Shown here: positions 57,838 through 59,689 of the stretch, one piece after another
Position numbering within the stretch: the first letter of the stretch is position 1
How the letters are laid out: each line of letters opens with the position of its first letter
NCBI RefSeq assembly: GCF_003719195.1
Contig: NZ_CP024996.1
Coordinates: 1,612,001 to 1,676,000 of the forward strand
Reading direction: 5' to 3'
Length of the DNA: 64,000 bases
Origin: Herbaspirillum rubrisubalbicans
Lineage (GTDB): Bacteria; Pseudomonadota; Gammaproteobacteria; Burkholderiales; Burkholderiaceae_D
Program-made: the position numbers and the translations under genes
Notes under the pieces: model-generated
Told to the model about the DNA's origin: nothing
The model's input: only the letters and a program-made list of their open reading frames with translations
The model's database searches: none

Positions 57838-58401
57838 GTGAAACCCCTCTACAAGACTGCCGCAACCGTCACCGCCGTGGGCGCCATGCTGGCGCTGGGT
57901 GGATGCGTGAGCGTGCCCACCGGGCCTTCGGTGATGGCCATGCCGGGCAAGGGCAAGAGCTACGAACAATTCCGCGCCGAGCAGCAGCAATGCCAGCAAT
58001 ACGCCCAGGAAGCCATCGGCGGCCAGGCGGCGCAGACCCAGAACAATGCCGCCAACAGCGCCGCCGTCGGTACTGCCGTGGGCGCCGTGGCCGGTGCCCT
58101 CATCGGTGCGGCCTCGGGCAATGCCGGCGCCGGTGCGGCCATCGGTGCCGGTGGCGGCTTGCTGGTGGGCAGTGCCGCCGGCAGCAACGCGGCAGCCGGC
58201 GGCAACTATTCGATGCAGCAGCGCTACGACATGACCTACACCCAGTGCATGGTCAGCAAGGGCAACCAGGTCCAGCAGCCGGTGGTGGAGACCACCACCG
58301 TCTACACCTACCACCCGCGCTATTACTACGCACCGCCGCCGCCGCCGGGCTATTACGGCCCGCCGCCGGCGTATTACGGTCCGCCACCGGGTGCTTACTG
58401 A
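57838..58401 (+). CDS. Lipoprotein with glycine-zipper region
   Basis: A 187-residue protein starting at a GTG. The lipobox LALGGC gives an acylated Cys at about residue 23. The middle AAVGTAVGAVAGALIGAASGNAGAGAAIGAGGG is a glycine zipper expected to insert in the outer membrane, and the tail is Pro/Tyr-rich (YYAPPPPPGYYGPPPAYYGPP). It probably forms a unit with the preceding envelope gene; short CCTGATC tandem repeats (57789-57818) sit between them. Confidence 0.75.
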   Translation: MKPLYKTAATVTAVGAMLALGGCVSVPTGPSVMAMPGKGKSYEQFRAEQQQCQQYAQEAIGGQAAQTQNNAANSAAVGTAVGAVAGALIGAASGNAGAGAAIGAGGGLLVGSAAGSNAAAGGNYSMQQRYDMTYTQCMVSKGNQVQQPVVETTTVYTYHPRYYYAPPPPPGYYGPPPAYYGPPPGAY

Positions 58402-58470
58402 GTCCGGTTACCAACACCGTCTCTTCGGAGGCGGTTTTTTCTTATGCAACGCAACATGACGGGCTGCCGG

Positions 58471-58479
58471 TGCTATACT
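58471..58479 (+). promoter_or_regulatory. Extended -10 promoter of the trpS leader
   Basis: TGCTATACT is an extended -10 (TGnTATAnT). Initiation about 7 bases downstream would fall at 58485-58487, on or next to the leader ATG. I see no good -35. Confidence 0.6.
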
Positions 58480-58486
58480 CGCCGCC

Positions 58487-58540
58487 ATGCTTTTCCGAAA
58501 AAATCAACTTGCGAAAACCCAGCATTGGTGGCGCGCCTGA
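58487..58540 (+). CDS. trpS leader peptide with tandem Trp codons
   Basis: A 17-residue frame, MLFRKNQLAKTQHWWRA, with two consecutive TGG codons at 58526-58531 near its end. There is no Shine-Dalgarno, and the predicted transcription start lies at the ATG, so translation is probably leaderless, as known for trpL of Sinorhizobium. Ribosome stalling at the Trp codons when tryptophanyl-tRNA is scarce would favour the antiterminator and let trpS be transcribed. Confidence 0.75.
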   Translation: MLFRKNQLAKTQHWWRA

Positions 58541-58582
58541 ACGAGGCGGCCCGTTTTCACACAGCTTGACCATGTGACCATG

Positions 58583-58612
58583 ATGCCGCCGGTTCCGGCG
58601 GCATTGTTTCTT
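58583..58612 (+). terminator. Attenuator terminator before trpS
   Basis: ATGCCGCC and GGCGGCAT pair (58583-58590 with 58597-58604) and are followed by TGTTTCTT. The upstream GGCGGC at 58545-58550, right after the leader stop, can pair with GCCGCC at 58585-58590 and form an antiterminator instead. Confidence 0.75.
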
Positions 58613-58654
58613 CAGCGTCGGGACCGGCAGCATTCCAGAGATTAACGATCAGGA

Positions 58655-59689
58655 ATGACCATGTCTTCGAACGCCACACCTTCCAGCACCTTACCCGTCG
58701 TCCTCACCGGCGACCGTCCTACCGGCCCGCTGCATCTGGGCCACTACATCGGCTCGCTCAAGTCGCGCGTGGCGCTGCAGGAAACTGCACGCCAGTTCCT
58801 GTTGCTGGCCGATACCCAGGCCATGACCGACAACGTCGGTCGCCACCAGAAGGTCACCGACAACGTGCTGGAAGTGGCGCTGGACTACCTGGCCGTGGGC
58901 ATCGACCCCGAAAAGTCCACCATCTTCATCCAGTCCCAGGTGCGCGAGCTGTATGAGCTGTCGATGGTGTTGCTCAACCTGGTGACGGTCTCGCGCCTGG
59001 AGCGTAACCCCACCATCAAGGAAGAGATCCGCCTGCGCGGCTTCGAGCGCGATATCCCGGCCGGTTTCCTGACCTATCCGGTCAGCCAGGCCGCCGACAT
59101 CACTGCCTTCAAGGGCCAGCTGGTGCCGGTGGGCAGCGACCAGTTGCCGATGATCGAGCAGACCAATGAACTGGTGCGCAAATTCAACGCCACCGTGGAC
59201 CGCGAAGTGCTGGTCGAGTGCAAGGAAGTGCTCTCCGAAACCGGCCGCCTGCCCGGTATCGATGGCAAGGCCAAGATGAGCAAGTCGCTGGGCAACTCGA
59301 TTGCGCTGGGCGCCACCCCGGCCGAGATCAAGCAGGCCGTACACCGGATGTACACCGATCCCAACCACCTGCGGGTGGACGATCCGGGCCAGGTCGAGGG
59401 CAATGTGGTGTTCACCTTCCTGGATGCCTTCGACCCTGACCGCGAGGCCGTGGCCGAACTGAAGGCCCACTACACCCGTGGCGGCCTGGGCGACAGCGTG
59501 GTCAAGCGCCGTCTGGAAGGCATCCTGCAGGAATTGCTGGAGCCGATCCGTACCCGTCGCGAAGAATTCGCCAAGGATCGTGGCGAAGTGCTGGCTATCT
59601 TGAAGCGCGGTACCGAACGCGCCAGCGCCGTGGCCGCGCAGACCATGTCCGAGGTCAATGCGGCCCTGGGCCTGAATTACTTCGGCTAA
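58655..59689 (+). CDS. trpS: Tryptophanyl-tRNA synthetase
   Basis: A 344-residue class I synthetase that charges tRNA-Trp. The HIGH-like HLGH is at residues 27-30 and KMSKS at 207-211. Trp-binding segments [10 protein letters not shown] and [11 protein letters not shown] are near 143-171. A GATCAGGA sequence precedes ATG 58655; ATG 58661 is an alternative start. The gene appears to be regulated by the Trp-codon attenuator upstream. A strong terminator follows. Confidence 0.95.

Follow-up and report, generated by a model that had tools for sequence, protein, structure and literature searches.

The trpS gene analysed here belongs to a 64-kb stretch of Herbaspirillum rubrisubalbicans DNA, which is referred to below as the window. 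Upstream of it lie an extended -10, a short leader frame with two adjacent Trp codons and an intrinsic terminator (Table 1). The leader ORF begins with the ATG at 58487, ends with the TGA at 58538-58540 and occupies the region 115-168 nt upstream of the ATG at 58655. The extended -10, the 17-codon frame lacking a Shine-Dalgarno (SD) sequence and the GGCGGC behind its stop, all of which a previous sequence-only reading of this DNA had described, could be read directly in the sequence, and no SD was found upstream of the leader ORF in the window. The ability of this GGCGGC to pair with the GCCGCC of the terminator 5' arm was likewise upheld by the sequence and by fold models; GGCGGC also occurs at 58597-58602, within the terminator 3' arm. 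The locus features reported earlier are confirmed, with one distance corrected: the terminator had been placed 115-150 bases before trpS, and its stem (58583-58604) is in fact located 51-72 nt before the ATG at 58655. The whole element (58583-58613), which was listed by a terminator scan and sits between leader and trpS, is followed by an interrupted U-tract, TTGTTTCTTC. Since a further terminator closes the upstream gene, trpS looks like a transcription unit of its own.

Table 1. Features of the trpS leader region of H. rubrisubalbicans (positions within the window)
Feature	Position	Strand	Basis
Intrinsic-terminator-like hairpin and T-run, 3' of the upstream gene (57838-58401)	58416-58435	+	Terminator scan and sequence
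Extended -10, TGCTATACT (TGC TATACT), 7 nt before the leader ATG	58471-58479	+	Sequence
Leader ORF, MLFRKNQLAKTQHWWRA then stop; 17 codons, no Shine-Dalgarno	58487-58540	+	Sequence and conserved WW frame
Two adjacent Trp codons (TGG TGG), at which the ribosome is predicted to stall	58526-58531	+	Sequence
Segment 2, GGCGGC, antiterminator 5' arm, 4 nt past the leader stop	58545-58550	+	Sequence, folds, comparison
Segment 3, terminator 5' arm ATGCCGCC; segments 2 and 4 are alternative partners of its GCCGCC (58585-58590)	58583-58590	+	
Segment 4, terminator 3' arm GGCGGCAT (58597-58604), then interrupted U-tract	58597-58613	+	Terminator scan, folds
Segment 5, TCGGGACCGGCAGCATT, complementary to segment 3 and the terminator loop	58618-58636	+	Complementarity, permutation
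AGGA, probable Shine-Dalgarno for a trpS start at ATG 58661	58651-58654	+	Sequence
trpS, encoding a tryptophanyl-tRNA synthetase of TrpRS II type; 344 aa if started at 58655, 342 aa if at 58661	58655-59689	+	

Two in-frame ATG codons occur within 58655-58663, at 58655 and 58661. The second is the more likely start of trpS, because the AGGA lies 6 nt before it and touches the first. The product matched TIGR00233 with 236.5 bits (cut-off 176.75) as well as PF00579 and was assigned to the TrpRS II type, the closest solved structures being 1yi8 (4e-117) and 2a4m ('Tryptophanyl-tRNA synthetase II', 4.3e-116), both from Deinococcus radiodurans; the next structure followed at 2.9e-67. The label 'E. 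coli-type TrpRS' was dropped, as the structure matches point to TrpRS II and chain 8i1w, presumably the E. coli enzyme, reached only 4.8e-33. Another TrpRS is encoded in the genome; it is 399 aa long, scored 769 bits against NF008922 (cut-off 572) and shares 40% identity with the 344-aa enzyme over an alignment of 185 columns. No such leader was found upstream of its gene, which leaves no room for one because it stands directly behind another frame.

Comparison among genomes backed the proposal of a Trp-codon attenuator on trpS. Of 125 genomes, 77 had a WW frame (an ATG frame of 10-32 codons containing WW, within 330 nt upstream of trpS) ahead of the homologous trpS; the set consisted of H. 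rubrisubalbicans itself, 104 others of the family sample and 20 further members of the genus. When the trpS upstream regions were dinucleotide-shuffled in 20 rounds, the mean was 0.5 and the maximum 2. Loss of the WW codons and stems in close relatives had been named in advance as evidence against the attenuator; within the genus, the WW frame was retained at 28 of the 32 examined trpS copies of TrpRS II type, and indels inside the Herbaspirillum leader were multiples of three. About a dozen of the 48 genomes without a WW frame show one-Trp versions (for example, MIFFTTPHASLTWRRS and MNTPPTNAPGWMRA) and others nothing there. In a second, partly overlapping set, the WW frame was found upstream in 93 of 128 loci, 91 of which passed a stricter filter, a few of these (L030, L115 and L117) possibly by chance. 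Genera with the leader included Herbaspirillum, Massilia, Janthinobacterium, Rugamonas, Pseudoduganella, Burkholderia and Paraburkholderia, and also Chromobacterium, Aeromonas (5/5), Lelliottia, Salipiger, Microvirga and Cupriavidus (one of three loci); relatives occur in other Beta-, Gamma- and Alphaproteobacteria. No WW frame was detected upstream of trpS in Herminiimonas and Duganella (both loci in each), Undibacterium, Methylophilus, Acinetobacter, Pandoraea and others.

These parts suggest the following mechanism. A transcript starting on the A of the leader ATG would be entered by the ribosome as a leaderless mRNA. With sufficient Trp-tRNA, the ribosome would reach the stop and cover GGCGGC, whereupon the 3:4 terminator would form and transcription would end. 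When charged tRNA-Trp is short, the ribosome would stall on TGG TGG and leave GGCGGC free to pair with GCCGCC; this 2:3 helix would block the terminator, read-through would rise, trpS would be made and charging restored. If the leader were not translated, GGCGGC would be held in a hairpin that spans the last part of the frame, and termination would be favoured.

Geometry and folds were consistent with this scheme, since a ribosome at the stop covers the antiterminator arm, which is free when the ribosome is stalled at the Trp codons. With the ribosome taken to cover 10-12 nt downstream, RNA ending before the terminator 3' arm adopted the 2:3 helix at -17.6 to -18.1 kcal/mol for a ribosome at Trp codon 1 or 2, and in the model with the ribosome at the leader stop this helix was absent (-4.6 to -5.0 kcal/mol). 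In the ribosome-free model, the end of the leader frame paired with GGCGGC and the terminator formed. Once the 3' arm was present, the terminator was preferred in each modelled state, the stalled one included; therefore, the decision between 2:3 and 3:4 must be kinetic. The RNA of 58485-58670 folded only moderately better than its shuffles (z -2.06; 5 of 200 shuffles equally good). An RNA fold of 58485-58615 had been suggested as a check on the attenuator: competing folds proved feasible, but the lowest-energy one of 58485-58670 lacked the terminator, whose 5' arm paired with a downstream segment (3:5 helix). With the trpS start region included, the 2:3 fold was lowest (-45.3), followed by 3:4 (-42.6) and 3:5 (-39.1).

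Similar arrangements were observed in related leaders. Among 75 leaders for which the scan listed a terminator, segment 2 usually started 1-6 nt after the leader stop, and its match to the terminator arm reached p<=0.05 against shuffles in 48 and missed this level in 27; in seven further leaders the terminator scan found none. The stretch from segment 2 to segment 3 folded with paired ends in all 40 taxa of a set that was selected, from 91 leader-bearing loci, for having the GGCGGC/GCCGCC/GGCGGC triple and that excludes near-duplicates and the Massilia/Janthinobacterium type (triple GCGGC/GCCGC/GGTGGC). It should be noted that TGGTGG is invariant in this alignment because the rows were so chosen, and that covariation inside the triple says little because the triple hardly varies.

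The start of the transcript was examined through promoter spacing. At the trpS locus, the -35 at 17-nt spacing (GCAACA) is weak, matching the consensus at only three of six positions, and the extended -10 would therefore carry most of the promoter work; transcription is predicted to start, most likely, on the A of the leader ATG. After similar upstreams had been collapsed, 59 were left. A strict -10 (at least 4/6 match, with A2 and T6, ending 6-8 nt before the leader ATG) was found in 33 of them, where about 1.2 were expected (about 0.4 per position in shuffles), and 12 more, mostly from Massilia and its kin, carried TTGAC-N17-NANNNT ending 6-7 nt before the ATG (0.01 expected). Counting both forms, 45 of the 59 have a -10-like hexamer whose end is 6-8 nt ahead of the ATG, and an SD-like motif precedes the leader in one. 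That two unlike promoter sequences keep one distance to the ATG argues for selection for a start at this codon, and the claim of a leaderless leader gains comparative backing.

On these grounds, a conserved Trp attenuator on trpS appears to be real and is probably leaderless. We estimate a probability of about 0.85 that the element is a ribosome-mediated, Trp-responsive transcription attenuator before a TrpRS II-type trpS, with a start that is most likely leaderless. The same attenuator might instead lie on a longer mRNA transcribed from further upstream, with translation of the leader starting at a weak or non-SD site. Such an arrangement would suit the 14 upstreams that fit neither promoter form, although some of these (for example, L041) would fit via an in-frame ATG further upstream, and it would suit the generic promoter scan, from which the extended -10 was absent and which gave one other site (58556-58584). 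However, the spacing found in most upstreams, the near absence of SD-like motifs and the terminator behind the upstream gene speak against it, and we consider it improbable. That a short two-Trp frame simply happens to stand before an ordinary terminator, without regulation, is hardly credible: the hairpin is indeed terminator-like and more than a third of the genomes (48 of 125) have no WW frame, but the excess over shuffles is large and the upstream gene already has its own terminator.

Behind the U-tract, the complementarity of segment 5 was significant (p<=0.05) in 37 of the 40 chosen taxa. When only the arm was used to fix the register, 144 of 190 cells held canonical pairs between the terminator loop and its partner (mean of the permutations 0.65, 0/5000 as high), as did 113 of 157 for the 32 distinct loop/partner combinations (mean 0.62, 0/5000 as high), a result that is inflated by related rows and in which loop position 1 also pairs inside the terminator in some taxa. 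Segment 5 should not steer termination, because it would be transcribed after that decision; mRNA processing, a translation check and pairing with released leader RNA are candidate functions. The last six nucleotides of segment 5, CATTCC (58631-58636), complement the GGAATG that lies over the trpS SD, and hairpins in which this end covers the SD can be drawn in several lineages. Nevertheless, a general role as an SD switch was not supported. The state models (35 taxa, 4 of 39 being dropped) changed SD opening little, with medians of 0.25 in 3:4, 0.25 in 2:3 and 0.38 in 3:5; opening of the SD rose by more than 0.2 in 13 of these taxa and fell in two. SD pairing did not exceed shuffles in the 29 taxa used for that comparison (10 of 39, which have no clear trpS SD, being dropped), with five at or below 0.1 and a median of 0.27. 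One locus, L026, where the motif was not found, was excluded from these tests.

The same data bear on whether the attenuator works at one level or two. Attenuation might be supplemented, not replaced, by a choice of segment 5 between segment 3 with the loop and the trpS SD, such that leaky read-through RNA with an intact terminator would stay untranslated. The wide occurrence of segment 5, its loop pairing and the drawable SD hairpins would favour such a switch, but the small modelled changes, the SD pairing at shuffle level, the taxa without a clear SD and the kinship that inflates the permutation result make it unlikely. Also of low probability is the idea of a leaderless Trp attenuator linked to TrpRS II genes throughout the Proteobacteria, in which segment 5 holds the terminator arm and loop and reaches the ribosome site of trpS as a second checkpoint, acting either within the read-through mRNA in cis or through released leader RNA in trans; we know of no such checkpoint in any described trp attenuator. 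If the released leader RNA or peptide acted in trans with segment 5 as its target, it would resemble rnTrpL/peTrpL of Sinorhizobium meliloti, where leaderless trpL products are described to act in trans (PMC7298713), and segment 5 is indeed complementary to the loop that the terminator has in the released RNA. This comparison is by analogy, pairing in cis would be simpler, and we regard action in trans as very improbable.

The proposed leaderless attenuator shares several features with known systems. The E. coli trp attenuator also has a short leader with tandem TGG TGG towards its end, as well as competing 2:3 and 3:4 stems; it controls biosynthesis and has a 5' UTR with an SD. Attenuation of trpRS1 and work on indolmycin have reportedly been described for Streptomyces coelicolor. 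In Streptomyces lividans, as proposed for Herbaspirillum, a leaderless leader peptide (trpL2, MMTRTCTQLWRAA) precedes a tryptophan-tRNA ligase gene, with hairpins behind it (PMC8079986); this actinobacterial leader differs in having one Trp codon and another sequence, and no U-rich tract is reported for it. An attenuator has also been predicted for trpS2 of Streptomyces avermitilis (PMC1262725), and duplicated synthetases, including the indolmycin-resistant TrpRS1, have been reviewed (PMC9437257). Among proteobacteria, the trpL RNA of S. meliloti has its 5' end at the leader ATG and combines Trp codons with a terminator and an antiterminator, whereas it controls trpE(G) and the Herbaspirillum element precedes trpS (PMC7298713). 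A small leader CDS with ribosome-profiling support is found on the trpS mRNA of the alphaproteobacterium Caulobacter crescentus, a likeness drawn from its description, not from sequence; no attenuator is worked out in the accessible part of that report (PMC4117421).

The sequence-only reading had considered a leaderless Trp attenuator on trpS as unusual and possibly undescribed in this lineage. This kind of attenuator is already known from Streptomyces, where a leaderless Trp leader before trpS has been described in S. lividans (PMC8079986) and a trpS2 attenuator predicted in S. avermitilis (PMC1262725). That it may be undescribed in this lineage holds within the open literature: there we found no description of the element in Proteobacteria, Betaproteobacteria included, most subscription journals lying outside the search, and the available portions of PMC10201369, PMC12135181 and PMC4974804 contain nothing on a trpS leader element. 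As far as this search reaches, the proteobacterial attenuator family and segment 5 are not described. The Rfam model Trp_leader (RF00513) scored 18.6 bits on the Herbaspirillum element, below its gathering score of 41, and no Rfam family matched at gathering in 15 related loci; a match to mir-4857 (26 bits, gathering 70) was taken as chance.

A covariance model (R1) built from the 40 chosen taxa was searched against 300 genomes from the order and 398 from the phylum. Its E-values are rough and its background is high, some match at E<=0.01 being found in 129 and 183 genomes, respectively. The 57 loci that were fetched comprised 19 with a TrpRS of at least 200 bits to the H. rubrisubalbicans enzyme, two with a weak TrpRS, seven with TrpE and 29 with no TrpRS-, TrpE-, TrpG- or TrpD-like frame. 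Among 19 fetched loci with at least 38 bits (match G445:C2, also above this score, lies outside them), 12 were beside trpS, four beside trpE and three beside other genes, and thus strong R1 matches go mainly with tryptophan genes. The 12 include the H. rubrisubalbicans locus, a close relative and L217, whose divergent gene encodes 298 aa and scores below the TrpRS cut-off, and others are near training rows. The trpE-side leaders found by R1 differ in sequence from trpS leaders.

Several loci in these sets deserve separate mention. Three TrpRS-like genes of 283-298 aa (L217, L227 and L231) stand behind the same kind of element and have altered HIGH-like motifs (GPLGLGHY, GPLSLGQL); NCBIfam scores of L217 and L227 were below cut-off, and L227 and L231 matched no Pfam family. 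The three loci beside other genes carry a sodium-dependent SNF-family transporter (L216), an unnamed frame (L221) and a phage-type integrase (L245). The transporter gene is preceded by a leader, MTAVFLAGWWRA, with a matching triple and is possibly Trp-controlled; the integrase gene has a leader, MNPTLRLNQWWWRL, with a terminator. Within the H. rubrisubalbicans genome, a search for further copies of the element gave one DNA match only and two R1 matches. About 210 nt upstream of trpE in this genome is a Trp-rich candidate leader, MFRNNKRTAQPTAAPEAWLWRRWQFQAQ followed by a stop (L131, frame 1132-1218), which has no DNA similarity to the trpS leader. About 9 kb past the end of the window is a frame of 613 codons (L132) that partly matches the trpE family and is presumably a pabB-pabC fusion.

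If the attenuator operates as proposed, a large bacterial group would use the level of charged tRNA-Trp, the enzyme's own product, to control a tryptophanyl-tRNA synthetase, and the whole sensor would begin at RNA nucleotide 1. The fixed distance between promoter and ATG in several lineages would make the benefit of a leader peptide without a 5' UTR testable. In genomes with two TrpRS enzymes, the switch could restrict synthesis of a reserve enzyme to times at which the housekeeping TrpRS or tryptophan fails, which would parallel Streptomyces. The 399-aa type was detected in 145 of 195 family genomes at E<=1e-50 and the TrpRS II-type trpS in 105, of which 48 had no 399-aa match at this threshold. 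The attenuator is not a mark of auxiliary copies only, as genomes that have both enzymes carry the WW leader in 34 of 57 cases and those having the TrpRS II type alone in 27 of 48, a comparison in which 16 of the 20 further genus members, with the WW leader, stand unclassified. The His in VADWHALT of the 399-aa enzyme, which presumably matters for indolmycin, aligns to a Gln in the 344-aa enzyme (LLADTQAMT), and the same Gln occurs in all 117 parsed relatives (11 of 128 were unparsed); this substitution is only a hint toward an indolmycin tolerance like that of Streptomyces TrpRS1.

Relatives of the H. rubrisubalbicans TrpRS II-type enzyme were also identified in 150 plasmid records, of which 48 showed 60-80% identity. 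Each of the three plasmid stretches examined (from Burkholderia pyrrocinia, Variovorax and Escherichia coli) carried the WW leader with the same layout and promoter spacing, and the leader is listed in none of the three plasmid gene tables, which are incomplete. The E. coli plasmid copy has nearby a transposase and what is predicted to be a fragment of a fosA-like gene.
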